IMG/VR virus record: IMGVR_UViG_3300036770_000877
Location: 1 to 64,000 of that record
Origin: a virus
Length of the DNA: 64,000 bases
Direction: 5' to 3' (one strand)
Shown here: positions 7,463-63,503 of the stretch, in pieces
Layout of the letters: the number at the start of each line of letters is the position of its first letter
Numbering within the stretch: the stretch's first letter is position 1
The notes under the pieces: model-generated
The model's input: only the letters and a program-made list of their open reading frames with translations
Databases searched by the model: none
Told to the model about the DNA's origin: nothing
Program-made: the position numbers and the translations under genes

Positions 7463-8450
7463 ATATCTCAGCCTTTAACTTATCAACTACATCTGGGTTA
7501 TCTCTAAGGTATTGTACTGCCTTAGCACGACCCTGGAATCGCTCTTCGTTGACTGTATACCATGCTCCGCCCTTTTCAATGATGCCGAATTGTTCTGCAA
7601 CATCAAGGACCTCGCCAACCTGATCTACTCCTAAATTCTCGCCCTGAAAGTAGAAGTCATATTGTCCCGAAAGATTAGGGGGGCCGAGTTTGTTGTAATC
7701 AATAATCCAGTTAACTGGTCTTCCGACTCTTTGCTCGATAATCTTGTCGCCAACTTTAATACCAGCTTTAATAGCATTTGCTTCAGCTTCAGACGACCAG
7801 AGCTTAATGACAGTGGAAGAGAAGAACTTGACAGCCATTCCGCCTGTGGGGATGTGCGAAGCATGCATAGATCCAAACTGATTTCGTTGTTGTGAGATGA
7901 GAACAAGTAATGTGTTCTTGTTTGCGTAGTTGAGCATTTTGACTGCATGTGTCATATCCTTTGCTTCTGCACCAATCTGTTTGGTGTCTTCTAATTTCTT
8001 TAGCTCAGTGCTATCTTTTTCAAAGTAAATTGCTGGAAGCAACGCAGAGATAGAATCAACAACAATGATGTCTACTCCTGCTTCCATAAGTTGTGTAGCA
8101 ACATCAACCATGTCGTTGATAGTTTTTGCTGGAGAGTATATTAAGTCGTTTGAATTAACTCCAAGTTTTTCTGCCCAATCAGTTGAGTAAGAAGCCTCTG
8201 CATCAATCCAAGCACAAGTCTTTCCTTCTTTCTGTGCTTCTGCAATCATCTGTAGACAAAACGATGACTTACCTGCTGACTTATTTCCCCAAACTAATAT
8301 CTGTCGTCCGTGACCCAGGCCGCCCTTGAGTGCCATGTTTAGACCGATGCTTGGTGTTTTTTGTTTTGGTGTTTCCACCTCTAGTGCCGTCTGAACTCTT
8401 TGTCTTGTTTTTGGGTCCAGCTTTGACATTATTTCTGTAACTACGCTCAT
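7449..8450 (-). CDS. recA: RecA-like recombinase
   Basis: A 333-residue strand-exchange ATPase. Walker A is GNKSAGKS at 55-62, Walker B is VDIIVVDS at about 126-133, and LLVLISQQRNQFG with the following Gly-Gly region corresponds to the L1/L2 DNA-binding loops. WIDAEASYSTDWAEKLG matches the conserved RecA segment after Walker A. It would drive homologous recombination and repair during phage replication, together with the RuvC-like and Cas4-like enzymes downstream. AAGAGAG stands 5 nt before the ATG. The start lies inside the 3' part of another open frame (see 8281). Confidence 0.92.
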   Translation of the reverse strand: MSVVTEIMSKLDPKTRQRVQTALEVETPKQKTPSIGLNMALKGGLGHGRQILVWGNKSAGKSSFCLQMIAEAQKEGKTCAWIDAEASYSTDWAEKLGVNSNDLIYSPAKTINDMVDVATQLMEAGVDIIVVDSISALLPAIYFEKDSTELKKLEDTKQIGAEAKDMTHAVKMLNYANKNTLLVLISQQRNQFGSMHASHIPTGGMAVKFFSSTVIKLWSSEAEANAIKAGIKVGDKIIEQRVGRPVNWIIDYNKLGPPNLSGQYDFYFQGENLGVDQVGEVLDVAEQFGIIEKGGAWYTVNEERFQGRAKAVQYLRDNPDVVDKLKAEIYAKA

Positions 8451-8604
8451 AAAAACTCTCTTCTAATTGTGAGGCAAATGCCTTCATGTCCTTGCTACGC
8501 ATTGTTGCAAGTTTTCTAATGATATTAAGTATGTCCTCTTCTTGTCCAGATTTTAGGACAAGGATCACTTCGTTATTGGTTCCGAATAAGAAGTAACCAT
8601 TCAT
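8281..8604 (-). CDS. Hypothetical protein overlapping recA; apparently leaderless
   Basis: The first 51 residues (MNGYFLFGTNNEV...) fill the only gap between the MazG-like gene and recA and look protein-like: a short beta unit and two amphipathic helices. The frame then continues 170 nt into recA as a basic, low-complexity tail (KNKTKSSDG...), an unusually long overlap. The ATG has no Shine-Dalgarno and is 8 nt after TATAAT. Either a genuine overlapping gene or a shorter gene with a sequencing or assembly indel near its end. No family recognised. Confidence 0.45.
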   Translation of the reverse strand: MNGYFLFGTNNEVILVLKSGQEEDILNIIRKLATMRSKDMKAFASQLEESFYERSYRNNVKAGPKNKTKSSDGTRGGNTKTKNTKHRSKHGTQGRPGSRTTDISLGK

Positions 8605-8641
8605 TTTATACTATTATATCATTAAAACTTGTTTCCGTGAA
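8605..8641 (-). promoter_or_regulatory. Promoter for leaderless ORF and recA
   Basis: On the minus strand TATAAT is at 8618-8613, with TTCACG (4 of 6 matches to TTGACA) 17 bp upstream at 8641-8636. The ATG of the next ORF begins at 8604, so an mRNA starting 6-8 nt after the -10 box would have almost no 5' leader. Confidence 0.5.
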
Positions 8642-8942
8642 GTGCTGGCCTTTCCATATTCTTCATAATCTTTTTATCCAAAATAAAGTCCAGAGAGTCT
8701 TTGATCTGCCCTGTATTTATCATTGCTTGATAAAGATCAACTAATCTAATAATGATATCAGCCATCTCCTCAACAACCTTTTCCCCACCTTGATCTTTTC
8801 TTATTGCTTCTAAAACTTCTGTAACTTCAGAATGAACTAGGGCAAGCTTGTTTCCAATTTTGTCATATGTAACTTCACCCTCCCAAAATCCTTTATTCTT
8901 CGCTATCAGATGTACTCGTCTCGCCATCAGGTCTAGACTCAT
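8622..8942 (-). CDS. MazG-like nucleotide pyrophosphohydrolase
   Basis: A 106-residue all-alpha NTP pyrophosphatase. The metal-binding pattern of the MazG/dUTPase-like superfamily is visible: HSEVTEVLEAIRK (EVxE, about 37-49) and, further on, VVEEMADIIIRLVDLY (ExxD). It would hydrolyse NTPs or dNTPs, or alter ppGpp levels, as proposed for phage MazG proteins. AAGGAG lies 7 nt before the ATG, which supports this start despite a 50-nt overlap with the preceding gene. Confidence 0.85.
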   Translation of the reverse strand: MSLDLMARRVHLIAKNKGFWEGEVTYDKIGNKLALVHSEVTEVLEAIRKDQGGEKVVEEMADIIIRLVDLYQAMINTGQIKDSLDFILDKKIMKNMERPALHGNKF

Positions 8943-9129
8943 TTTGATCTCCTTCTACTAATGAAATAATAAATGTTTTTTCTTCTTCATTTACTTCTAT
9001 GAATAAGCTTTTCTTATCTAACTCAGGCGACATATAATCCTCTATCTTAACAGAGACATTACCATTGCTTTGAATTGATGCAAGTAGCAGTCTTACTAGA
9101 TTGATTTCCAATCCCTCTTCTTGTGTCAT
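8893..9129 (-). CDS. Small acidic hypothetical protein
   Basis: A 78-residue protein: an N-terminal helix (LEINLVRLLLASIQ), a small beta region (NVSVKIED, FIEVNEEEKTFIISLV) and an acidic, Ser/Thr-rich disordered tail that overlaps the MazG-like gene. Its ATG overlaps the stop of dnaE (ATGA), so it is translationally coupled to the polymerase. No family recognised. An acidic tail next to replication genes would fit a polymerase or SSB partner, but nothing in the sequence proves it. Confidence 0.65.
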   Translation of the reverse strand: MTQEEGLEINLVRLLLASIQSNGNVSVKIEDYMSPELDKKSLFIEVNEEEKTFIISLVEGDQNESRPDGETSTSDSEE

Positions 9130-27129: not shown

Positions 27130-27584
27130 TAAACCTCCTCTAATGATATGTTCATATTCATCCGTATGTATGGTGTAGTCGCACTTGGATTACGCTTGAC
27201 TATATCAAACGAGCATGATGAGAAATTAACTAAAAACTCCTGAAACGCATCAGTACCAGTTGTACTGAATTTTTGTACTATCTTAATGTAGAAAGGTTGC
27301 TTATTGTTCTTATAGAACTCATATATCTGACTTGCACCCCAACCACCGTCAACAGTATATGTTGATGTGTTTGGCACATCTTCCCAAGAAATATTAAACG
27401 TGTGCTTTTGCGCTATTACATTTTTACGCATTGTTCCATTTGCAGTTCTTTGTGATGTAGATATTTCATCAATTCCTACGCCCAAAGGTCTACGGTTATG
27501 ATCGGTTATCTTTGTGTATGAAGTAGCCCCAACTCCCTTTACATAAATAAGGGAATCTTTAAGTCCATTTACTACCCAACTCAT
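27129..27584 (-). CDS. Minor tail protein (possible distal tail protein)
   Basis: A 151-residue beta protein encoded between the tape measure and the hub-like protein, coupled to both by 1- to 4-nt overlaps. HTFNISWEDVPNTS and FYIKIVQKFST are typical beta strands; IRMNMNISLEEV ends the protein. Order and size suggest the first tip ring after the tube (Dit-like role), but no diagnostic motif was seen. Confidence 0.65.
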   Translation of the reverse strand: MSWVVNGLKDSLIYVKGVGATSYTKITDHNRRPLGVGIDEISTSQRTANGTMRKNVIAQKHTFNISWEDVPNTSTYTVDGGWGASQIYEFYKNNKQPFYIKIVQKFSTTGTDAFQEFLVNFSSCSFDIVKRNPSATTPYIRMNMNISLEEV

Positions 27585-30500
27585 ATACTCAATCTCCTAT
27601 CATCAGTAGTTCTCTTGATTGCTGCACCAAGGTCTTTCTTAATTTTAGCAATAATTTCTTCTGGAGAGCAACCTGGATCAGTTATATTAATCTCATTAAT
27701 GTTAACTCTTACATCCCCCTCATTATAAGGACCAGCATTACGCATATTCTCAAATGCTCTTGGGTCAAGAGTTCTGTTATTAATCTTCTCCATGTTTGCT
27801 ACGCCGTATTTTGCTACCGCTCTGGCATTCATCATAAACTCTTTATTAGATGCAGCAACATTAATACTATCAGATACACTATTTCCTGCTCCAGTTATAT
27901 AGCCTCCACCATAATAACCACGTATCTTTCCACCCATCCATTTCTTATCTTGCCTAATAAGATCATTTTGAGTTTTATCATATCTATACTTTTCTCCAAA
28001 TATAGTCACAATCTCATTAGCTTCAAATGACTCTCCACGACCTGCTAGATATCCTAAAATTTTCTTCTTTTGATCAGCAGAAAGAGCAGTAGCTACTCCT
28101 TCGCTCTTGGTTCCTCTTCCATTATCAGCACTTGTAATTCCAACTGCAGCTGCCGTAGTAGTTATATCTCTTGGGCTCTTAGAAGTTCCTGGTCCACCAA
28201 TAATTCCACCTACGTTTGCTAAATCAGCTTCTAGCTGTCTAAATGAAGCCTTTAGTGTTTCCATTGCTTTAGTTAGGGCATCTCCAGAAAGAACTCCCTT
28301 AAACTTGGATTCAAAATTTCTAAACGCTTCGCTTTCTGTAAATTCTTTAAATGAAACTGTTACCTTTCCGTCTTTTTGGAATCCTCCCAAGACAGTCTTT
28401 ATAGCATCATCAATATTCTTTTCCATTTCTTTTGCTTTATTGGCAACGTTTCCAACTGCTCCCGCCCCAGCACTATCCAGCGCCTTGAGCTTGTCTTGCA
28501 GAGCTTTCTTCTTATCGTCTCTAGCAATTTCTTTTTCAGTCTGTGCCTTTTCTTGCAAGAATCTTGCAGACTCTGCTTGCATTTCTAGCTGAGCTCTTAA
28601 TGCTCCTTCCATATCTCCAGAGCTTAGTGCTCCAAGATAGTCTAGGGCTAGACTTCTACGCTTTTCTTCATACTTAAGCTGTAGCTCCTTAATCTTATTG
28701 ATATTCTTTTCTTTGCGCTCAATTTCTTCAAGAGCATCTAGTTGTGCCTGTATTGCTTTCTTGGCAGCATCGTTATTTGCGCTTGAAGAACCGCCAGCAA
28801 ACATTCCCTGAAGAGATGCGGCAAGGTCTGCCTTAGCTTTATCTAATGCCTGATTTGCTTGATATAGCTCAAAGTAAGCACGTATTCTCATTCCATCAAA
28901 ATCTTTAATTGCTTCTAGGCTAGGGATTATTCCTTCAATACGCATCTTTAGAGCCAGCATTTGAGCTTCTGCATCTACTCCATTACTCTTTAATCCATCG
29001 AGTACCGTCTTGTCTGTTCTAGTCAATCCAGATATTGAATTAGCAACTCCATCCACAGCATCCTGAGTTATAAGTCCAGAATCAGCAACATCTTTCATTG
29101 CTTGTGCGAATGTCTCTGCATCTGAATTAGCCATAGCATTATTAATTGCTTCTATAGCTTGTTTTGTAGCAGTTCCACTTAAAGCAGCGTTTCTTTGTGC
29201 GGAGTCTAGCTTTAAATAAGCATTTTGTAAATCAGTTAGATACTTAGCTTGATCTGGGGCAAATCCACTTACAGAAGTACCATTGATTGCCATACGCTTA
29301 GCCATTTCTGGATCTAAGCCAACTGCTGATGCCCCGCCTAATAATGACTGGAATTCAGAACCAGCAAGTACGTCGTTACCCCTGATTCTTTCTAGGTTTC
29401 TCTTAAGTGCTCCAGATTGTGATAAGCCAGACTCTCCAGTAAGAAGCATCTTAAGATCTGTTGCGAATCCTTCTTTACCTGCGGCCTTTAGAATAGCAGC
29501 CATCATTTGCTTAGCAGTTTCTTCAGAAACTCCAGCAGCAATATAACTTAGATATTGGCTTAGGAAATCATCTTGAACTTCTTTAAAACTATCCGCACCC
29601 TTTGTTTTTTCACGTAGTGCTCCTGTCGATGTAGAGGTTGCTGCTTCTAAAGCTGCTGCTGCCAATACTTCTAATGCACTTGCTGCTTCTTGAGATTTAC
29701 CAGTTACTTGTGTTAACTGTATATCTCCAATAGTCTTCAAGCTTAATCCTGCTGCTTTTGCATACTCTTTATCAATTTGATACTGCTTAATACTTAATGC
29801 TTGAATGTCTGCAAGCTTCTTAAAATGATCTATTGTTAACTTTATAACAGGAATTAATGCTCCGAGGGCTGCTCCAACTGCCATTCCTGGTCCGCCGAAC
29901 ATCATACCCATAGATGCACCCATCATTGCTCCGCCAGCAATATTTCCTGCAGCACCAGTTTGTGGAACCATAGAAGTGGCCATGCCTAGACCCATCATAG
30001 CCATAGATGATCCAAGACCTGCTCTTCCAGTAAAGATTCCTCTCATGCCATTCTTTGCTCGACCCAACAAACCAACCTTTGCGGCTGGACTATCGGCTGC
30101 TAAAGTAGATATACCAGCATTCTCAATGTTAATTATTTCTTGAATCTCTTTAACTTTTTCCTGTTCAAGTTGTGACTTCTTGGCTCTTAACTCCGCAATC
30201 TTAGCTTTTATCTGTGGATTCTTTACTGCATCTTCAGACAATACTCTACCTGACTCAGTTATAACCTGAACAACTCCATCTACCATCTTAACGGTAGCAG
30301 TACCCAATGATTTAGTTCCAGTTTTTACTTTTATCTCTTCAGCATTCATAACTGCATCAATTTGTGCCGATGCTTGAGCTATTGCCAAAGATAGTCTTCC
30401 TGTTCTTTCTACAGTTGTTGCTGCTGCATTCTTTAAGACACCGCCTTGCATAGCTGCAACCTCTCTCTTTGTTGCCTCAATAACTGCAGCGTCTGCACCG

Positions 30501-33145
30501 TTATCTTCAAATGCTCTTAATATGCTTGCGTTTGTTTCAGATATAACATCATCATAACTAGTTCCAATTCTTTCTCTAGCTAGTTGTGCTGCGGCTCTAG
30601 CTGCTGCGGCAGGGTCTTGAGTTGCTGCAAATTCTTTAGTCCAGGCATCTTTCATTTGATTTGCAAACTTTTCGCCTTCTACTGCGCTTACTTTATAAGC
30701 ATCATTAATTGCAGTCATGTTTGCAACATGTGTTGCCTGTATCTTTGCATACTCTTCGCTTGTCTGGAAAACTTGCTCTATACCAACATCATACTTACCA
30801 GGATCTCTCATTGCAGCACCCATAATTTTTTGTGCTTCTTTGTTTGTTCCTCTAGCAGCGATATCTCCTAGCATGGCTCTCTTTTGCTCTAAAGTTGTTC
30901 CAGGAGCAACAATTGTATTTGGCATGCTCTCTGCAAATGCGCCTTGAATCTGTGCTGCTATGCTATCTGCTGGAACAGCAATAACTGGAGCATTTAGTGC
31001 TTCTAGTGGATTATTTATATTACCAACTGTTGCTGTTTTTCTTCCGCCAGAAACTCCAGATACCTTTACTAGCTCTTCATCTGTTAATCCTATATCACCC
31101 ATAATTGCTCTACGTCTAGCTCTATTTAATAAGTGTGATCTTTCTATTCCAGTAGGCCTTACACCGCTTCCTGTTCCAAATTCTGGTTGGGGCAAGAATC
31201 TTGATCCACCAAATCCTGGGGCTACTTCTGCGCCAGCAGCATATGTATTTTGTAGCTCTACTAATTCTCTCATTCTAGAAATAAGATTTTGTATTTGCAT
31301 TGCAGCAGCTTTTGCTGCATCTGCTTCGCTATACATAGCGTTAGCAGCTTTATCTCCAGATAGCTTTACAGCCATCATTTGTTCATCTAATAATTCAAAC
31401 TTTTTAGTGCTTGTAAATAGTCTGCCTAAGAAGCCTATTGATTTAACAACGTATCCTATAAAGTTTAAGAATACACCAGAAAGCATGATAAGAGGTCCAG
31501 CAAGTCCTACTATGGCTCCTATAATTGTTAGTACTGTTTTTGCACCGTCTGGAAGATTATTAAATCCTTCCATTAATTTATTTACTACGCCAATTACCTT
31601 TGAGAATATTCCTAAGAATCCTTCTCCAGCTAAAGCTAAATTAGCTTTTAATGTTTCCATTTGTCTTGCAAACTTACCTGATGCTGACTCGGTAAGTGTT
31701 GTTAATTCTCGATCAGCAATTGCTGCTAGGTCTGCTGTTGATGCCCCCATTAATTCCATAACTTGCAATGTCTGACTTCCAGATTTTCCTAGATTGTCAA
31801 ACAGCGCAGACATACGAGCAAACTGGAATTTGCCAAACATCTGCTCAATTGCTTGTGCTCTAGCCAATGGGTTTAGTTGATTTAAGGCATCCTTTAATGC
31901 TGAAACAGTTCCAACTAAATCTCCCGCATTATTATTTACTATGCTCAAAACATCTATGCCAAAGCTGTTCATTAAATCTCTAGTTTTTTCTGTTGGATTA
32001 ATTATAGATGCAAGACCAGACTTCAATGCGTTTGCAGACTCAGAAGCATTAATTCCTCCTTCACGCATAGCTGTAAGGAACAATGCTAAATCTTTAACGT
32101 CTCCTCCAAGTTGTCTTACTACTGGACCAGCTTTTGGAATTGCTGTTACTAAGTCATTAAGGCTTGTTGAAGTTTGGTTTTCAACTGCGTTAAGGAAGTT
32201 AATAGATTCTGCTAATTCTTTTGTATTTAAATTAAAAGCACTTTGTAATGATAGAGTTGCAGACATAGCCTCTTGTCTATCTACTTCGCCAAGGATTGCT
32301 AGACGTGTTGTTTCTGCTACTGACTCTAATAGTTCGTTACCAGTTTTACCAGTTGCAGCAATATCAGCAGCCAAACCTATGGTTTCGTTTGCTGCTGCTC
32401 CAAGAGAAGCTGCTAGTTCTTTTGCAAGACCAGCTGTCTGTGTTTTAATTCTTTCAATTTCTGTTGTTGTTGCTCCACCAATATCACCATAAACCTTTGC
32501 CAAACGTGTGAGTTGTTTATCTGTTTCACGGAATGCATTTGATGCTGTTGCTGCAAAAATAGTTAAAGGTACTGTTAAACCTACTGTTAACTGACGGCCA
32601 GCCCACTGGGTATTTTTACCTAAGTTAATAAGCTCTGTAGAAACACCTTGAATGGATCTTCCAATAATTTTGAACTGCTCTGCACGTAGAGCTTTCATTG
32701 TTGATGGGTCAAGTCTATCTAGACCTGTGGGTGTTGACAAAACGTTTCTAGCTTCACCCTGTGGACCAACCGTCGTTGTTAATATAGATCTCTGCAATTT
32801 GACCTGCTCTTCAGCAAGTCTTCTGATCATTCCTCTTTGGCCCCGAACTTGTAAATTAAATTCTCGGAAATAATCTTTTAGCTTCAATCTACCTTGGTCT
32901 AAGTGCCGACCAAATTCTCTTGTTTCATTTGCTACGTCTACGAATGTCGAAGACCATAGACGGGTGTTACGCATACCCTCAATAAATTGGTTATTTAAAT
33001 TATTTAATGAGGCATATGAAGCAGACCCAAGCCCATTAAGTTGTGTTTGAAGCGTAGCAATTTCTGCGTTTGCACGACGAACTTCCCCGATTAAATCGGA
33101 AAAGTTGGCATTCGCATTAAAGCTAATTACAACTTGTTGGGCCAT
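27581..33145 (-). CDS. Tape measure protein (TP901 type)
   Basis: At 1,854 residues this is the longest gene in the window. It starts with coiled coils, then holds a TP901-type tape measure core at about 190-480 (FRETDKQLTRLAKVYGDI; AILGEVDRQEAMSATL; MREGGINASESANALKSGL). Hydrophobic segments follow at about 530-575 and a Gly/Met/Ala-rich one at about 1050-1110 (GGAMMGASMGMMFGG), as expected for the part that enters the membrane. At about 0.15 nm per residue it would set a tail near 0.28 micrometre. No lysozyme or peptidase motif was noticed. Confidence 0.93.
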   Translation of the reverse strand: MAQQVVISFNANANFSDLIGEVRRANAEIATLQTQLNGLGSASYASLNNLNNQFIEGMRNTRLWSSTFVDVANETREFGRHLDQGRLKLKDYFREFNLQVRGQRGMIRRLAEEQVKLQRSILTTTVGPQGEARNVLSTPTGLDRLDPSTMKALRAEQFKIIGRSIQGVSTELINLGKNTQWAGRQLTVGLTVPLTIFAATASNAFRETDKQLTRLAKVYGDIGGATTTEIERIKTQTAGLAKELAASLGAAANETIGLAADIAATGKTGNELLESVAETTRLAILGEVDRQEAMSATLSLQSAFNLNTKELAESINFLNAVENQTSTSLNDLVTAIPKAGPVVRQLGGDVKDLALFLTAMREGGINASESANALKSGLASIINPTEKTRDLMNSFGIDVLSIVNNNAGDLVGTVSALKDALNQLNPLARAQAIEQMFGKFQFARMSALFDNLGKSGSQTLQVMELMGASTADLAAIADRELTTLTESASGKFARQMETLKANLALAGEGFLGIFSKVIGVVNKLMEGFNNLPDGAKTVLTIIGAIVGLAGPLIMLSGVFLNFIGYVVKSIGFLGRLFTSTKKFELLDEQMMAVKLSGDKAANAMYSEADAAKAAAMQIQNLISRMRELVELQNTYAAGAEVAPGFGGSRFLPQPEFGTGSGVRPTGIERSHLLNRARRRAIMGDIGLTDEELVKVSGVSGGRKTATVGNINNPLEALNAPVIAVPADSIAAQIQGAFAESMPNTIVAPGTTLEQKRAMLGDIAARGTNKEAQKIMGAAMRDPGKYDVGIEQVFQTSEEYAKIQATHVANMTAINDAYKVSAVEGEKFANQMKDAWTKEFAATQDPAAAARAAAQLARERIGTSYDDVISETNASILRAFEDNGADAAVIEATKREVAAMQGGVLKNAAATTVERTGRLSLAIAQASAQIDAVMNAEEIKVKTGTKSLGTATVKMVDGVVQVITESGRVLSEDAVKNPQIKAKIAELRAKKSQLEQEKVKEIQEIINIENAGISTLAADSPAAKVGLLGRAKNGMRGIFTGRAGLGSSMAMMGLGMATSMVPQTGAAGNIAGGAMMGASMGMMFGGPGMAVGAALGALIPVIKLTIDHFKKLADIQALSIKQYQIDKEYAKAAGLSLKTIGDIQLTQVTGKSQEAASALEVLAAAALEAATSTSTGALREKTKGADSFKEVQDDFLSQYLSYIAAGVSEETAKQMMAAILKAAGKEGFATDLKMLLTGESGLSQSGALKRNLERIRGNDVLAGSEFQSLLGGASAVGLDPEMAKRMAINGTSVSGFAPDQAKYLTDLQNAYLKLDSAQRNAALSGTATKQAIEAINNAMANSDAETFAQAMKDVADSGLITQDAVDGVANSISGLTRTDKTVLDGLKSNGVDAEAQMLALKMRIEGIIPSLEAIKDFDGMRIRAYFELYQANQALDKAKADLAASLQGMFAGGSSSANNDAAKKAIQAQLDALEEIERKEKNINKIKELQLKYEEKRRSLALDYLGALSSGDMEGALRAQLEMQAESARFLQEKAQTEKEIARDDKKKALQDKLKALDSAGAGAVGNVANKAKEMEKNIDDAIKTVLGGFQKDGKVTVSFKEFTESEAFRNFESKFKGVLSGDALTKAMETLKASFRQLEADLANVGGIIGGPGTSKSPRDITTTAAAVGITSADNGRGTKSEGVATALSADQKKKILGYLAGRGESFEANEIVTIFGEKYRYDKTQNDLIRQDKKWMGGKIRGYYGGGYITGAGNSVSDSINVAASNKEFMMNARAVAKYGVANMEKINNRTLDPRAFENMRNAGPYNEGDVRVNINEINITDPGCSPEEIIAKIKKDLGAAIKRTTDDRRLSI

Positions 33146-52507: not shown

Positions 52508-54351
52508 TATGCATTATTCAGGTATCTTACGATAACAATACCCGACCCTCCGTTTCCTCCAGTAGATCCAGTTGTATTTGTAAATCCTCCTCCGCCACCG
52601 CCAGTATTGGCAGCACCAGAAACTCCAGGCACTCCAGAACCATTTGATCCTGCACCACCACCGCCTTGACCTCCAGTGCTACCAGGATATGGAGATGTAT
52701 GAGCAGAACCGCCACCACCACCAGCAAACCAACCTGCAGCACCATATGTTGTACCAAAGTACGAGCTCATGTTTCTTCCTACACCACCATTACCATTTGA
52801 ACTTTGTGTTGTAGGTCCACCAGCTCCACCAGCTCCGCCTCCACCTGCTGAATAATAAGGAGGGCTTTGTGATGCACTACTTGGATCATCTCCTCCAGGA
52901 AATCCTTGACCAGGTGTATATCCACCACCTACGTAAGGACCGCTTGATGATTGAGTTCCTCCTGATCCGCTACCCCAAACATTTAGAGTTGTTGGTGGTT
53001 GCCAATCCCAACCATATGCACCTTGTCCTCCATTTGCAATAGAGACTCCAGTTATTGCTGGAGTTATGGATGTATTTTGACCATCCTTAGATGTTGATTG
53101 ATCTGAACCACCAGGTCTTGGAGTATATCCAGTGCCTCCCGCTCCTACTAAAACGCTATATGTTCCTGCTGGTGCTGTAATATTTTCGGCAAACATCAAG
53201 CCGCCAGCTCCACCGCCTGCTGCTCCACCAGCTCCGCCTCCTGCAATTAACATGTAGTCTGCTGAAACAGGTTTATTTATTTTAAGTGTTGAGGTTCCAG
53301 TTGTCGTAAAAACATGCATCTTATAGTTTCCAAAAGTTGTTATCGTTCCACCTTCCATTGCTGGACCTAAATAAAATATTCTATCTACATAGTTTCCACC
53401 AGTATCTATAGCTCTTACTGTTATTTCTGAAAATACTTCTTGAGATGGTGTTCCAGAAATAACGCCAGTTTCTTGATTTAAAGATAATCCACTAGGTAAA
53501 GTTCCATACACAATTGAATAATCAATATCTGTATTTTCAGTATCAGATGCTAATAATGTTGTAGAATAAGGAACTCCAGTAGAAATTACTGGCAGATTTG
53601 AATTTGTTTGCCATGATGGAGAAGATCCAGCAGTTATACTATTTGAAAGAATATGTAAATTAGATCCTGTAGGAGATGTTACTCCTGGATTTGTTACCTT
53701 TAAAGAATATGTTCCTGGTGCAAAGCTATCTGGTCTTACAAATGTAATTGATGTATTAGATACACGAGTAAATGATTTAGGTGTTATTTCATTATTATTT
53801 GAGTCTACTATTTTTAAATCTACGTTTAATGCAAAATTTCCACCAGTAATAGTTGCTGAATCATCTATATTTACTAAAGCTGTTGGTGTAACTGAAGATA
53901 AAAATGGTCCTGCGGTTGTTTGAGATGTAGTTGTATCTGCAGTAAATGTTGTTTTATAGCTAAATGAAAGCAGGTCTCCCTGTGACCCACCTATAACTAC
54001 TATTTTATTAAAGTTACCAGTAGCATTTAATGATGGGGACTTTGTGTATCCAACAACTGAGCCATCTCCTGAATATACATATATGTCGTAAGTAGCATCT
54101 CCAAGAGCTGAATTAATTGTGTAAGCTCCAGCAAAGTATTCTTTTGTAAATGTGGCAGTTGTAACTGACCCATTGAGAGTTACGTTAAAGTCATTTGCTC
54201 CTGTTGCTGGAAGCCATCCAGAAGATGTATAAATTTCTTGTACGCCGAGTGTACCATTATAAAATGTTTGGCCAATTGCTGGATTTGCAGGTCTATCTGA
54301 AGATGTACCAAAAGGTACCCCTCCAAGCGCAGATGTTCTAATATCGCTCAT
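52507..54351 (-). CDS. IPT/Ig-like plus glycine-rich tail adhesin (copy 3)
   Basis: The ATG at 54351 shares TAATG with the upstream stop and is chosen over 54366; 614 residues. It has the same order: GGVPFGTSSDRPANPAIGQ start, beta domains, IPT-like unit, Ig-like domain (LPSGLSLNQETGVISGTPS), then a glycine-rich domain from ~375 (DYMLIAGGGAGGAAGGGAGG) ending GGSGIVIVRYLNNA. The shared ending IVIVRY also appears in two further adhesins at 59166 and 63500. Confidence 0.82.
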   Translation of the reverse strand: MSDIRTSALGGVPFGTSSDRPANPAIGQTFYNGTLGVQEIYTSSGWLPATGANDFNVTLNGSVTTATFTKEYFAGAYTINSALGDATYDIYVYSGDGSVVGYTKSPSLNATGNFNKIVVIGGSQGDLLSFSYKTTFTADTTTSQTTAGPFLSSVTPTALVNIDDSATITGGNFALNVDLKIVDSNNNEITPKSFTRVSNTSITFVRPDSFAPGTYSLKVTNPGVTSPTGSNLHILSNSITAGSSPSWQTNSNLPVISTGVPYSTTLLASDTENTDIDYSIVYGTLPSGLSLNQETGVISGTPSQEVFSEITVRAIDTGGNYVDRIFYLGPAMEGGTITTFGNYKMHVFTTTGTSTLKINKPVSADYMLIAGGGAGGAAGGGAGGLMFAENITAPAGTYSVLVGAGGTGYTPRPGGSDQSTSKDGQNTSITPAITGVSIANGGQGAYGWDWQPPTTLNVWGSGSGGTQSSSGPYVGGGYTPGQGFPGGDDPSSASQSPPYYSAGGGGAGGAGGPTTQSSNGNGGVGRNMSSYFGTTYGAAGWFAGGGGGSAHTSPYPGSTGGQGGGGAGSNGSGVPGVSGAANTGGGGGGFTNTTGSTGGNGGSGIVIVRYLNNA

Positions 54352-56219
54352 TATCCAACCTTCCATCCATAGGTGCTACCAGTATAAAGTAATGTATACC
54401 AGCCACCATTATTGTCAATTATTAAATTGCCAGTCCCGCCATTTATTTTATTGCCGTTTCTAGCCACAGTTATATTATACGTTGAAGCGTTCCCAGAAGC
54501 ATCTACGATCTGAATCTCATCGTTTAGCGCAGGTGACGCAGGTAGCGTCAATGTAAGCGCAGAAGCCGATGTAACAAAATATCTCTTTTTAGCTACCAAG
54601 TTAGTGTTAGCAGATATTGATAATGGGGCTACTGAAGTATTGGCAGCAAGTAAGGCATCTGTTTCTGCCTGTGTATATGTATCTACTGCATTAAAATTAG
54701 TTACTGTAAGTACTTCAATTATATCCCCCGCCGTTGCGTCGGCAGTAAGAACAACTGTATGCTCTGTAGGTGTTGTATAGTCTGTAGTACGAATAAGCAG
54801 AATACCATTCATAAATACCTGCTCGTATCCAGGAATGAATGGAACAGTTGTAGTAAATGTATCTTGTTCTGCTACTGCTGTAAATACTTGACGACGTACT
54901 AGATTTGGATCAAATACGTCAACCTCATCATCTGAGTCAATCCATATCTGTCCTACTTCTGGAGATGTTGGAGCAGTTGTTTGATACAGGGCACCTGGTT
55001 GTGTAGATGCATCAATCTGATCAATAACGAATGCTGTTGTAGCAATTTGTGTAGTATCTGTTCCTACCGCTGCTGTCGGCGCTGTAGGTGTACCTGTAAA
55101 TGTAGGCGATGCTGATGGAGCCTTAGTTCCAAGAGCTGTTGTTACCGTGGCTGCAAATGATGCGTCATCATTAATAGCCGCTGCTAATTCATTTAAAGTA
55201 TCTAGTGTTGCAGGAGCTGCATCTACAATTGCAGCAGCCGCTGCTGAAGCAGCGTTATCTGCATAAGTCTTTGTAGCTAGGTCTGCGGTATTTGCAATAC
55301 CGTGAATATTAGTTGTGTCTGATTCATGTGATGATAAAGCAGATGCTGCAGCAGATTGTGCTGCTGCTGCTGATCCAGCGGGATCAAATAGGTTATCAAT
55401 AGTCTGATTAGTCCATAGCCCAGTAGTTGAGTTATATCTTAGTACCTGATTATTTTGCTTCCCGCTTATGTAGACATCATGAATTTCATCTAGCTCAAAC
55501 CCGTTTTGAACCTTTACAAAGATAGATCCTGTGTTTACTTGGGCTCTAGTTACAATACCTACAAATACTAAATGCTGTGGAGCATATGGCTTATTAGCCA
55601 AACCATAAATTACTGAACCTGGAGTAGATCCTAGCCATACTGGATCTCCTGGTTGAGCTGTTGAAGTATCAATGCCTTCAATAAGACCTTCGGTTACTAC
55701 CGTTCCAATTGCACCGTCTGCTACGGTATCTTCCATAATTCCAAAAGTTTTAGATGATGTTGATTCGGCAGAGTTTGAAGAAAGAACTACTCTAAGTTGA
55801 CCCGATGCTCCTACAGCCCCAGCTGCGGAAACTACCTGACCTTTATAAATAGTTGAACCAGTATTATTTACTACTTCTTGAGAAATTTTATTTGCAGTTC
55901 CACCAACACCAGTTAGTATTACTTGGTTTCCTACGTCGTCATATGTGGCGGTAAGGTTGACATGGTTTGCATGGTTAAAAAGGGCTGCCGAAGCATCCTG
56001 AGCCATTTCGTCTGTATATGTAGGAACAGTCTCTAATTGACGTACTCTATAGTCAAGGCTAGTGGTATTTGCCGAGTTGTTTATTCCAACCTTAGTCTCT
56101 AAGGCTTCAATGGCATCATTCGCATCCGCATGTTGCTGAGAGTGCGATGGAGCATCTAGTTCGTTTGTGCTGGCGGGATTTGTTAGGTTATCCAGCGAAG
56201 TCGGGAAATTGGTAGCCAT
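54351..56219 (-). CDS. Tail fibre with shared fibre module and cap domain
   Basis: A 622-residue fibre. The N-terminus (MATNFPTSLDNLTNP ... HSQQHADANDAIEALE) is a widespread phage fibre start with a coiled coil. A central region (PAPQHLVFVGIVTRAQVNTG, in part) and the module SAAAAQSAAASALSSH ... TLDTLNELAAAINDDASF recur elsewhere in the window. VRRQVFTAVAEQDTFTTTV and the C-terminal cap (DEIQIVDASGNASTYNITV) complete it. AGGAAGG lies before the ATG. Confidence 0.8.
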   Translation of the reverse strand: MATNFPTSLDNLTNPASTNELDAPSHSQQHADANDAIEALETKVGINNSANTTSLDYRVRQLETVPTYTDEMAQDASAALFNHANHVNLTATYDDVGNQVILTGVGGTANKISQEVVNNTGSTIYKGQVVSAAGAVGASGQLRVVLSSNSAESTSSKTFGIMEDTVADGAIGTVVTEGLIEGIDTSTAQPGDPVWLGSTPGSVIYGLANKPYAPQHLVFVGIVTRAQVNTGSIFVKVQNGFELDEIHDVYISGKQNNQVLRYNSTTGLWTNQTIDNLFDPAGSAAAAQSAAASALSSHESDTTNIHGIANTADLATKTYADNAASAAAAAIVDAAPATLDTLNELAAAINDDASFAATVTTALGTKAPSASPTFTGTPTAPTAAVGTDTTQIATTAFVIDQIDASTQPGALYQTTAPTSPEVGQIWIDSDDEVDVFDPNLVRRQVFTAVAEQDTFTTTVPFIPGYEQVFMNGILLIRTTDYTTPTEHTVVLTADATAGDIIEVLTVTNFNAVDTYTQAETDALLAANTSVAPLSISANTNLVAKKRYFVTSASALTLTLPASPALNDEIQIVDASGNASTYNITVARNGNKINGGTGNLIIDNNGGWYTLLYTGSTYGWKVG

Positions 56220-56227
56220 ACCTTCCT

Positions 56228-56233
56228 ATTATA
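56228..56233 (-). promoter_or_regulatory. -10-like box before fibre gene
   Basis: TATAAT (56233-56228) lies directly before the AGGAAGG ribosome site of the 622-residue fibre gene and after the stop of the membrane-protein gene. The -35 region is weak. It would restart transcription after the halogenase operon. Confidence 0.4.
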
Positions 56234-56243
56234 CCCCGAATAT

Positions 56244-56528
56244 CTACCAAAAGTGCTTTATGATAGCAGCTGAAGCCAAAATAGACCATCCTATATTAAA
56301 ATATATAATAGTAGGCAAAGTCTTGACTGTTGAAGTAAGTATCAAGGTCAAGCTTGATGCGAGAGCAAATATGTAAAGCCACCAAAACTGAACCCCGAAA
56401 AGAAGTCCAGGAAATATGATTGCAAGTTTTGTTGAGAATGCCCAGAACTCAATAATATTGGTTTTGTTCCAATATGACTTTTGTCCTAGTTGTTTTGTTA
56501 CTTCTACGATTTCTTTAGGCTTTATCAT
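56244..56528 (-). CDS. Three-helix membrane protein of the halogenase operon
   Basis: The ATG at 56528 overlaps the stop of the preceding gene (ATGA); 94 residues. After a short charged start come three hydrophobic segments, about 24-46 (FWAFSTKLAIIFPGLLFGVQ), 48-66 (LYIFALASSLTLILTS) and 73-90 (TIIYFNIGWSILASAAII). No family recognised. The tight coupling suggests that it works with the halogenase product, for example in transport or by anchoring a complex; this is inference. Confidence 0.7.
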   Translation of the reverse strand: MIKPKEIVEVTKQLGQKSYWNKTNIIEFWAFSTKLAIIFPGLLFGVQFWWLYIFALASSLTLILTSTVKTLPTIIYFNIGWSILASAAIIKHFW

Positions 56529-57229
56529 TCGTAGCTTTTCTTTGCCCAAGCATTGTCTCTATACCACCCTAAAATTTTTCTTACGGACTTACTAGATGCT
56601 TTCCAACCTTCTAAAATAATATCTTTACAGTATTCTGAGATCCACTTATCTCTTTTAAATGGAATAATCTGGAAAAGAGGTGTTCCCATTTCTATGATAC
56701 CGCTAAAATCTTCTTTTAAAAATATTGAATAGTTTCCTGGAAATAAAGGATATTTATCAGTATCTATAATTGCAGACAAACCATAGAATGGTAGGTCTGG
56801 TCTATTAAATGGTTGAGTTATAAGTATGCTATATCCTGGTGGTGTTTTTATATATAACGGATGGCTTAATGTATAGTGAACATCTGAATATCCAGCCATT
56901 TTTGGCATAAATCCAGATTGGGCGCTATCTCTAACTCCAATTATGTTATCTTCTTTTTCTTTCCATCTTATATTTTGAATCCCAGTATTTTCATCTTTTA
57001 TCACATAAAGATCTGCCCATAGCTCAAAAATATATCCAGAAATCATAGCGTCCGTAAATGGCATACAAACTTTAAAAGTTTTTTTAGCATTTAGCAAATT
57101 TTCGTCTGGCGTCCCCATGAATCTAGGAGTTTTTTTAAACCACTCTGGAAGATAAGACTTTGCTGGCTTTGGAAAAGATATATCCCAAAGCCTGTCTGAT
57201 AGAGCAAACTTTATTGTTTTATTTTTCAT
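56525..57229 (-). CDS. Unrecognised protein coupled to halogenase
   Basis: A 234-residue protein overlapping the halogenase gene by 11 nt. The N-terminus is basic and aromatic; the core is beta-rich with a striking run: HPLYIKTPPGYSILITQPFN, then LPFYGLSAIIDTDKYPLFPG, then MGTPLFQIIPFKRDKW. The pattern (KTPPGY, N-R-x-D-L-PF, IDTD, GTPxxQIIPFKR) recalls conserved hypothetical proteins of aquatic phages, possibly DUF6065-like, but I am not sure of the family. It could be a partner or substrate-binding protein of the halogenase. Confidence 0.7.
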   Translation of the reverse strand: MKNKTIKFALSDRLWDISFPKPAKSYLPEWFKKTPRFMGTPDENLLNAKKTFKVCMPFTDAMISGYIFELWADLYVIKDENTGIQNIRWKEKEDNIIGVRDSAQSGFMPKMAGYSDVHYTLSHPLYIKTPPGYSILITQPFNRPDLPFYGLSAIIDTDKYPLFPGNYSIFLKEDFSGIIEMGTPLFQIIPFKRDKWISEYCKDIILEGWKASSKSVRKILGWYRDNAWAKKSYE

Positions 57230-58808
57230 TATGGATATTTTCCTTTAGCCATTGATACATAGTTGGTGAAGCATCTGCTTCTTCCTGCCAAAGTTTACGG
57301 AATAGATCCCATGTCTTCCACGTATCTTTGCAGTATTCATAATAATCGATACCGTCATAGTGATGCCATCTTTCTACTGTATCTTTAGTAACAGGGAAAT
57401 AATTAAGTCCTGTAGCAATACAGTGGATTCCACCAACCCCGTCATATCTTTGACGATTAATGTGAATATCACCCATATCTTGGAATCCAATAACCATAGA
57501 TGGATTTAATTCTTGAAGATCTGGCTGGAATGTCTTATCTGTAATATCCTGCCAATATTTTGTATCTTGTCTATTTGAAAGAGCATAATGTTGAGCAACA
57601 AACTCCTTAAATCCAAGATACTGTCTACGTGTTGTCATATTATAAACATCACGATCTGTTTGTGTTACCGTTCCACGGCTTAATGTCTTTACTAGCTTAT
57701 CTAGAAACTCATGGACTGTAAATAGACCATTAGATTCTAGCGGCTCAATAAATCCAGCAGCAAATCCAATAGCAACAACATTCTTTACAAATGTGCGCTT
57801 ATGAATTCCCACCTTAAACTTAATATACCTGTATTCAAAATTATCTACATCACGATTTGGATCATGTATAGTCATCTTATCTGATCTTAAGTGATCCTTA
57901 AATTCCTGCAGAGCATCTTCCTTTGAGATGTACTTATCGCTAAATACATATCCTGTTCCGATACGTTCCCATGAAGGAATATTCCATACCCAGCCATTTT
58001 CAATGGCAATACAGTTAGTGTATGGCTCCATCTCTTTTTCCTTATCCGTATAAGGAATACGAGTAGCCCATGCGCTGTTATTTGGAAGCATATGCTCAAA
58101 ATCATCCCATGGCTCGTTCAATGCACCTTCGAGCAACATTGATTTAAATCCAGTACAGTCAATAAATAGATCTGCAGTTATCTTTTCTCCAGTAGTTAGA
58201 GTTACTGATTCAATTCCCGCATCATTTGTAGAAACCTCAGTTACTGTATCTGCTACTACTATAACTCCACGAGGAATACAGTAGTTATTCTTTAGCCACT
58301 GACCAAACTTAGTAGCGTCAAAGTGGTATGCGACATCTTGCTTAAAGTTAAAGTTACCCAACTTGCCCGATTCATTCCATGACAGCTTATTCTGTTCTGC
58401 CAAAGTAAGGGCGGGGAAGAAAGTGCGAGCATAATCTGCTACATCTAGATCTGGAAACTTAGCCTTCTTAACATACCAGTCATTAAGACCATTAACTGTT
58501 CCATCTAGGAATACCTTACCAAATGGGTAGTGGAATCCACCAGCATCCTTATTATAAAAATCTGTAAACTTAATAGACATCTTATATACAGCATCTGTTG
58601 CTGGCATAAAGTCTTTTTCATCAATACCAATCCAATTAGCCCATCCAGTAATCCCGCCTAATGTAGATTCTCCCACACCAATAATCGGATAATCTGGGGA
58701 TTCTATTACAACAATTTCCTTATCTGGAAATGCTCTAATCATGGAAGCGGCTGACATCCAGCCAGCTGACCCTCCACCAACAATAACAATCTTATTTAAA
58801 TTAATCAA
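57219..58808 (-). CDS. Flavin-dependent tryptophan-halogenase-like enzyme
   Basis: A 529-residue FAD enzyme starting with TTG (58808); no other start would keep the FAD motif. GGGSAG at 11-16 binds FAD and GVGEST is at 44-49. YKMSIKF contains K76, aligning with the catalytic Lys79 of PrnA (FKAAIKF). WVWNIP at 273-278 is the WxWxIP signature that separates halogenases from monooxygenases, and EPLES (355-359) matches the PrnA Glu346/Ser347 pair. It should make HOX from FADH2, O2 and halide to halogenate an aromatic substrate. No flavin reductase is seen in the window, so the host must supply FADH2. Phage halogenases are rare; one cyanophage example (VirX1) is known. Confidence 0.92.
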   Translation of the reverse strand: MINLNKIVIVGGGSAGWMSAASMIRAFPDKEIVVIESPDYPIIGVGESTLGGITGWANWIGIDEKDFMPATDAVYKMSIKFTDFYNKDAGGFHYPFGKVFLDGTVNGLNDWYVKKAKFPDLDVADYARTFFPALTLAEQNKLSWNESGKLGNFNFKQDVAYHFDATKFGQWLKNNYCIPRGVIVVADTVTEVSTNDAGIESVTLTTGEKITADLFIDCTGFKSMLLEGALNEPWDDFEHMLPNNSAWATRIPYTDKEKEMEPYTNCIAIENGWVWNIPSWERIGTGYVFSDKYISKEDALQEFKDHLRSDKMTIHDPNRDVDNFEYRYIKFKVGIHKRTFVKNVVAIGFAAGFIEPLESNGLFTVHEFLDKLVKTLSRGTVTQTDRDVYNMTTRRQYLGFKEFVAQHYALSNRQDTKYWQDITDKTFQPDLQELNPSMVIGFQDMGDIHINRQRYDGVGGIHCIATGLNYFPVTKDTVERWHHYDGIDYYEYCKDTWKTWDLFRKLWQEEADASPTMYQWLKENIHNEK

Positions 58809-58833
58809 TGATATACCTATCTCTAAAAAGACT

Positions 58834-58870
58834 AATGCCTCTACTTATAGGTTACTATAATAGAGGCATT
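58834..58870 (-). terminator. Terminator upstream of the halogenase operon
   Basis: On the minus strand AATGCCTCTA and TAGAGGCATT form a perfect 10-bp stem around a 17-base loop, followed by AGTCTTTTT. It lies 14 nt after the stop of the small acidic protein and 25 nt before the halogenase TTG, so it separates the halogenase genes from the adhesin transcript. Confidence 0.8.
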
Positions 58871-58884
58871 TTGTCAATGCTTTT

Positions 58885-59169
58885 TTATGAAAGCTTTATC
58901 CAAGCTGTGGTTTCTTCGTCCCAGCGATAAACTCCATCTTGAGGGGCTAATCCTGCTGGAGATTCCCACTCATAAGTTTCTTCATTAAATATCCAGGAAT
59001 TCCATGGTTTAATATCTATAAATTTATTGGACTCAAAATCATATGTTGATCCAATATGAGCATCTCTTGTTGACTCTGTTACTCTTACGTATCCAGCAGA
59101 GTTAAAAGATTCATCTCCAACAATTATATTAACTACTGTATTATTTATTACTTGTGCAAACTTAATCAT
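58885..59169 (-). CDS. Small acidic adhesin-associated protein (copy 1)
   Basis: A 94-residue protein (MIKFAQVINNTVVNIIVGDE). It has the layout of short proteins encoded next to fibres in many aquatic phages: an N-terminal beta unit with N-x-V-V-x-I-I-V, a YDFESNKFI strand, then PWNSWIFNEETYEWESP and a W-D-E-E-x-x-x-W-I ending. It is a paralogue of 63210 (PFDSWTLDEESFEWTPP). Each copy starts within the stop of a glycine-rich adhesin, so it probably assists adhesin folding or caps it. Confidence 0.72.
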   Translation of the reverse strand: MIKFAQVINNTVVNIIVGDESFNSAGYVRVTESTRDAHIGSTYDFESNKFIDIKPWNSWIFNEETYEWESPAGLAPQDGVYRWDEETTAWIKLS

Positions 59170-63209: not shown

Positions 63210-63503
63210 TTAAGAAACTTCAAGCCAATCTTGTTCTTGTTCGCTCCAGGCCCATTTTCCACTAGCAGGCTTTTCTTTTGGTGGAGTCCATTCAAAAGAT
63301 TCTTCATCTAGAGTCCACGAATCAAATGGCCTGGATATAATAAACTTATTTTTTTCTTTAGAATAAAGTGATCCTGGTCCAGCCCATCCAGTTTCTTCTG
63401 TAACTTCAACATAGATTCCTTCTATCTCATCGATAAGAGATGGAACTGCTACTATTACTGATTCAACAATATTTTCTGAATTAATTTTTGCAAAGTTTTT
63501 CAT
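63210..63503 (-). CDS. Small acidic adhesin-associated protein (copy 2)
   Basis: A 97-residue paralogue of 58885. It shares N-x-V-x-x-V-I-V at the start, a YSKEKNKFI strand, PFDSWTLDEESFEWTPP and a W-S-E-Q-E-x-D-W ending. It starts by ATGA overlap with the adhesin stop, the same arrangement as copy 1, showing that the gene pair duplicated as a unit. Confidence 0.72.
   Translation of the reverse strand: MKNFAKINSENIVESVIVAVPSLIDEIEGIYVEVTEETGWAGPGSLYSKEKNKFIISRPFDSWTLDEESFEWTPPKEKPASGKWAWSEQEQDWLEVS

Follow-up and report, generated by a model that had tools for sequence, protein, structure and literature searches.

Introduction

Flavin-dependent halogenases use FADH2, O2 and a halide to generate hypohalous acid, which a catalytic lysine delivers to an electron-rich aromatic ring. 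VirX1-type viral halogenases reportedly prefer iodide and have a broad substrate scope, and although a structure of VirX1 exists, we know of no established natural substrate for a viral halogenase. The active site of VirX1 is open (PMC8407142). Phage halogenases have been treated as auxiliary metabolic genes (PMC10452541; PMC2984593). The cyanophage prnA cluster (T4-GC 212) was listed alongside virion structural proteins, with 2OG oxygenases present in the same phages, and it was read as a host-like or metabolic gene rather than described as a conserved unit with a DUF6065-like or membrane protein (PMC3037559).

Here, we analysed a halogenase gene and its neighbours in the first 64 kb (the window) of a 104,499-bp virus record. 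The closest solved relative of this halogenase is VirX1 of cyanophage Syn10 (6qgm), which has the same FAD, Lys, WxWxIP and EPLES core and aligns to residues 1-527 of the window enzyme (353.9 bits; ~38% identity in the Syn10 match). In Syn10, as in the window, genes similar to tail-fibre genes lie near and a gene of the same family as the 234-aa protein of the window (hereafter D6065) directly follows the halogenase: CPUG_00131 matches VirX1 over the stretch compared and the next gene, CPUG_00130, is a D6065 member (3e-36), so VirX1 itself has a D6065 neighbour. Unlike the window, the Syn10 locus yielded no gene for the 94-aa membrane protein (hereafter TM), and Syn10 has another halogenase besides VirX1, along with further genes that resemble syn9 2OG oxygenases. 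PrnA, RebH and PyrH share the FAD fold and the catalytic residues over residues ~1-433, but the C-terminal ~100 residues of the window halogenase do not align to them, and no natural-product pathway is found near the window gene.

Results

The window contains a tailed-phage gene set, recognised by gene order and family matches, that includes a long tape measure gene (27581-33145), a prohead protease and a portal. The portal shares ~60% identity with the portals of Muntaha and other Streptomyces phages, so that an actinobacterial host is likely. Family matches also revealed a block of tail-fibre-like, glycine-rich and LamG proteins, and the halogenase cassette is placed within this adhesin block, upstream of the portal. 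This agrees with an earlier note made from the sequence alone, which placed the operon among receptor-binding rather than metabolic genes: no biosynthetic or quinone genes adjoin the cassette, and the replication genes are far from it. A scan of genes in the record beyond the window picked out, among others, proteins resembling a class II ribonucleotide reductase and a CHAP endolysin, as well as a glycosyltransferase. The adhesins adjoining the cassette contain up to 8.1% Tyr, compared with 1.5-2.1% in the tape measure and the major head protein. A search of the cassette against the PADLOC defence models gave no match beyond a chance-level AbiEi hit (E 0.0046), and an anti-phage defence role was therefore rejected.

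Table 1. Features of the halogenase cassette and its immediate neighbours in the window
Feature	Position	Strand	Basis
Tail-fibre-like protein, directly downstream of the cassette	54351..56219	(-)	phrog_454 and other tail fibre families
TM: membrane protein, three long predicted helices, 94 aa	56244..56528	(-)	IMG/VR relatives, conserved alignment, halogenase linkage
D6065: phrog_7084/DUF6065-like, predicted dUTPase-like beta-clip fold, 234 aa	56525..57229	(-)	phrog_7084, AF2 model, Foldseek
Flavin-dependent halogenase (HAL), VirX1 type, 529 aa, TTG start	57219..58808	(-)	PF04820, phrog_2928, VirX1 6qgm
Hairpin 58834-58870, T-run 58825-58829, abutting TTGACA 58872-58877	58825..58877	(-)	folding, relatives
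Small Trp-rich protein, directly upstream of the cassette	58885..59169	(-)	phrog_7759 (function unassigned); 5 Trp in 94 aa

Three overlapping genes run on the minus strand from 58808 down to 56244 in the order HAL-D6065-TM. The first matched the PF04820 profile with 347.3 bits (curated cut-off 21) and phrog_2928 with 502 bits, and it is the only halogenase copy in the whole record. GGGSAG (residues 11-16), K76, WVWNIP (273-278) and EPLES (355-359) are all present, and the enzyme thus proved as complete as the earlier note had described it. K76, W273 and E355 are invariant across 196 relatives, and WxWxIP and EPLES are essentially fixed in the 116 relatives that are more than 45% identical. 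Together with pairwise dN/dS values of 0.04-0.13, these near-invariant catalytic residues indicate that the gene is not decaying and is under strong purifying selection; the disrupted FAD or Lys site that the note had named as a sign of decay was not found in the relatives. Tryptophan halogenases align to the enzyme only up to residue ~433-450, with no alignment over the C-terminal Trp-binding region, as judged by sequence alignment and not by a structural comparison of the Trp contacts.

The D6065 ORF overlaps the halogenase ORF by 11 nt. Its product had been called unrecognised, but it has relatives: it matched phrog_7084 with 120.7 bits and, although it scored 18.8 bits against DUF6065 (PF19541), under the cut-off of 26.6, that family was matched by 31 of 88 aligned relatives, so that homology to its members can be drawn through the alignment. 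An AlphaFold (AF2) model built from the 88-relative alignment (pLDDT 93.6) had dUTPases and dCTP deaminases as its top Foldseek matches in the PDB (E 5e-5, prob 1.00), with partial overlap, 8-20% identity and query-normalised TM scores of just 0.24-0.41 among the matches listed. Independently, the sequence profile weakly matched dUTPases over the GxxDxD...GxxxxQ strand pair. Asp156 and Asp158 of dUTPase motif III are retained; however, the motif III Tyr, the Arg of the GDRIAQ strand and the Gly-rich C-terminal motif are missing. An active dUTPase was rejected on these grounds, and we call D6065 a predicted beta-clip protein related to dUTPases, not a dUTPase.

Members of the D6065 family are also found elsewhere. 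A second phage family (c9) is distantly homologous to it (hhalign 93%). Many haloarchaeal tailed viruses carry relatives too, with no halogenase match there in this collection, and a D6065 gene lies near a ribonucleotide reductase in Halorubrum tailed phage 5 (L194:7908-8750), as it does in S-RIM4. The chromosomal homologues (L198-L276) are mostly from Alphaproteobacteria and have, by eye, TPR-like and ABC-transporter-like neighbours. Unlike phage members of phrog_7084/DUF6065, these bacterial genes never adjoined a halogenase, and their context gave no hint of a substrate.

For TM, a start at ATG 56528, which forms an ATGA overlap with the D6065 stop and gives 94 aa, is more plausible than TTG 56549. 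The model predicted three long helices and a short N-terminal one at low confidence (pLDDT 69.7), in line with the overlapping three-helix membrane protein proposed earlier, and an alignment of relatives was highly conserved. Foldseek with this model returned nothing below E 0.7 and a PDB profile search was empty. A host origin of TM was set aside, as degenerate patterns detected no relative in the genome_contigs collection. Elsewhere, TM adjoins a thyX-like gene in four loci (L172-L175, near 8000-9100) with no halogenase nearby, and a ribonucleotide reductase in L150-L163, where a halogenase is nearby in L150, L152 and L159.

In the gap that separates the halogenase from the tail gene upstream, a hairpin of -22.8 kcal/mol (z = -5.3; none of 200 shuffles as stable) is followed by CTTTTT, which bears out the terminator proposed to precede the operon. 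TTGACA lies on the upstream edge of this hairpin. The same layout was found upstream of the halogenase in L003-L007, with different stems, and in L021, with a near-identical stem; some of L003-L007 carry a clear TATAAT 18 nt after TTGACA, while the -10 of the window itself is weak (TAACCT). This constant layout with a changing stem is possibly a combined terminator and promoter. Downstream, a gap of 24 nt separates TM from the tail-fibre-like gene, leaving no room for the terminator of its own that an autonomous accessory unit (moron) would have. The arrangement suggests that hairpin and TTGACA stop or reduce upstream transcription and re-initiate it for the cassette, and that this transcription may read on into the adhesin gene, since those 24 nt alone lie between. 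The -10 box proposed earlier behind the operon consists of a TATAAT standing by itself (56228-56233); a promoter scan there found none, and promoter-like sites in the region were fewer than in shuffles, so this element is unsupported as a promoter.

IMG/VR was scanned with patterns, which gave 398 stretches with halogenase relatives and 352 with TM relatives. From each set, the 80 best entered the analysis, in which loci were collapsed to distinct ones and neighbours were counted within 5 kb. Among the TM loci (39 distinct from the best 80 of 352), a halogenase was present in 34/39 and D6065 in 25/39. The halogenase loci (53 distinct from the best 80 of 398) had TM in 19, D6065 in 24 and a 2OG-Fe(II) oxygenase in 31. 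At phage D6065 loci, a halogenase was found in 16/92 and an oxygenase in 31/92, whereas none of the 72 bacterial D6065 loci had a halogenase, TM or an oxygenase at this distance. Because every set was retrieved with its own gene, the retrieval does not by itself create the cross-associations; some contigs, however, occur in more than one set, the sets are biased towards relatives of the window proteins, and absences are partly contig ends. These counts show that the trio recurs and that the partners are conserved with the halogenase in related phages, whereas the earlier note had named unconserved neighbours as a refutation. They also led us to reject TM as a holin, because it is linked to the halogenase and not to lysis; the CHAP endolysin-like gene lies at 73103-73900 of the record, ~16.6 kb from TM.

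In phages that share neighbouring genes with the window, the orders HAL-TM-D6065 (L363), HAL-TM-D6065-D6065 (L362, L364), HAL-TM (L371) and oxygenase-HAL-TM (L390) were found. HAL-TM was kept in all six close relatives with contigs reaching the site (L387, L388, L390-L393), while the copy number and order of D6065 differed. In close relatives, HAL and TM thus form the stable pair, and the part that varies is D6065. A clean empty site was sought with L368, L370 and L376, where the flanks do not align and the adhesins are mosaic. In cyanophages, the gene directly after the halogenase is a D6065 member in syn9 (gp43, 7.5e-36), S-RIM44, S-CREM1 and P-TIM40. None of the cyanophage halogenase loci that were read contained TM; the membrane link thus does not extend to all phages with a halogenase.

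Larger assemblies were found in other phages. Compact islands of 12-14 kb in L102, L090 (2821-15063) and L031 contain 3-5 halogenases, 6-8 2OG-Fe(II) oxygenases and D6065 genes; L102:1301-15080 has 4 halogenases, 8 oxygenases and 3 D6065 genes within 14 kb, L031:1525-15736 has 5 halogenases and 6 oxygenases, and L059 has 11 oxygenases with one halogenase. The L090 island abuts a tail-sheath-like gene and that of L043 abuts tail-fibre-like genes (PHROG match), and the neighbours of the L102 island were judged by eye to be similar to those of L090 and L043. In addition, halogenase and oxygenase are fused in single ORFs of 656-658 aa (L039:10646-12622 and L041:8374-10344). The 2OG-Fe(II) oxygenase fold class includes known protein hydroxylases.

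A recognised structural gene was present within 8 kb in 44 of the 53 distinct halogenase loci (best 80 of 398), a figure that has no matched background. Among 16 annotated isolates, with Syn10 counted together with syn9, the halogenase adjoins tail-fibre, collagen-like or other virion genes in 11 (Sf-CH11, S-CREM1, S-RIM44, syn9, S-WAM1, P-RSM6, HTVC008M, CP21, P-SSM2, P-TIM40 and S-SZBM1) and stands elsewhere in S-B64, S-SSM7, Syn1, S-H38 and S-MbCM6. Some cyanophage halogenases stand with sugar-pathway or photosynthesis genes.

The small Trp-rich protein upstream of the cassette is related to a second one at 63210-63503; both are ~95 aa, belong to one sequence cluster and lie in the tail region. 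Its family was found near 14/53 halogenases and 4/76 halogenase-free D6065 loci, which is suggestive, and cyanophage gp40-like proteins have no detectable homology to it. It was not adopted as the specific substrate and stands as a candidate only.

Discussion

Taken together, the conserved motifs, the selection signal and the recurring neighbours make it very probable that the window encodes a functional halogenase with conserved partners. We tentatively favour, at somewhat less than even confidence, a late-region oxidative tailoring cassette whose target would be Tyr or Trp in adhesins of the phage itself or in a small tail protein. The halogenase would be produced alongside the adhesins as virions assemble, FADH2 would come from a reductase that is presumably of host origin, and Lys76 would pass hypohalous acid to an aromatic ring of these proteins. 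D6065 may bind or present the substrate, and TM may tether the complex to the membrane. The larger islands, with several halogenases and many 2OG-Fe(II) oxygenases, would then serve as sets of enzymes for the chemical diversification of tail fibres; that such dedicated islands modify and diversify the phages' own fibres, with the window trio as a minimal membrane-associated version, is possible but less likely than not. The place of the cassette, the association of halogenases with oxygenases, the fusions and the open active site reported for VirX1 all point to a large target that is expressed late, which is why adhesin aromatics are our first choice. From the intact and constrained active site, the place in the adhesin block, the structural genes within 8 kb, the oxygenases and the Tyr-rich adhesins we infer the same, although a Tyr-rich composition may be common in fibres. 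Against it, a membrane partner is not explained by the modification of soluble virion proteins, and in five isolates the halogenase stands away from virion genes. The constant membrane partner keeps a membrane or host-surface molecule a serious rival: the cassette may halogenate a quinone, carotenoid, retinal or envelope component, with TM as dock or carrier, and so alter membrane function, block superinfection or aid release. This is a possibility that we take seriously without expecting it. The near-constant, strongly conserved TM, the steadiness of HAL-TM while D6065 varies, and the cyanophage halogenases that stand with sugar-pathway or photosynthesis genes point to it, but no biosynthetic or quinone genes accompany the window cassette and the cyanophage loci read do without TM.

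The adhesin target also has to be weighed against published work that gives cyanophage prnA a role in metabolism or antibiotic protection (PMC10452541; PMC2984593), according to which a classical auxiliary metabolic gene would halogenate free tryptophan or another soluble aromatic metabolite to give a bioactive compound during infection. We consider this unlikely: pathway genes are absent nearby, several halogenase copies per island are hard to explain, and free Trp is a doubtful substrate given that the enzyme aligns to VirX1 over its full length, with a C-terminus that does not align to the tryptophan halogenases, and given the open VirX1 active site. Even less probable is a nucleotide-linked role, in which D6065 would bind a nucleotide-like ligand and the halogenase act on nucleotides or DNA; the fold match to dUTPases and dCTP deaminases, the ribonucleotide reductases near D6065 in a halovirus and S-RIM4, and the thyX-like and ribonucleotide reductase genes beside TM are consistent with it, but D6065 lacks the Tyr, the Arg and the Gly-rich motif named above, and replication genes lie at a distance from the window cassette. 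A functionless passenger in the course of being lost would fit the varying copy number and order of D6065, yet it is very improbable: the active site is intact in all relatives examined and HAL-TM persists in the close ones, so that the selection signal largely refutes it.

The enzyme class and viral halogenases were already known, and the conserved partners, the fusions and the islands appear to be new: a limited search of open-licence literature found no description of the D6065 or TM partner, of fusions or of multi-halogenase islands, and nothing on point for phage fibre hydroxylation or freshwater actinophage halogenases. The D6065 family, the near-constant TM in one group, the fusions and the repeated location among tail genes narrow the search for the substrate of viral halogenases, and the target becomes testable. 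If tail fibres are indeed modified, this would be, to our knowledge, the first example of a phage enzyme that halogenates proteins of the virion. Should virion proteins carry halogens or hydroxyl groups, sequence alone would miss a layer of receptor binding.
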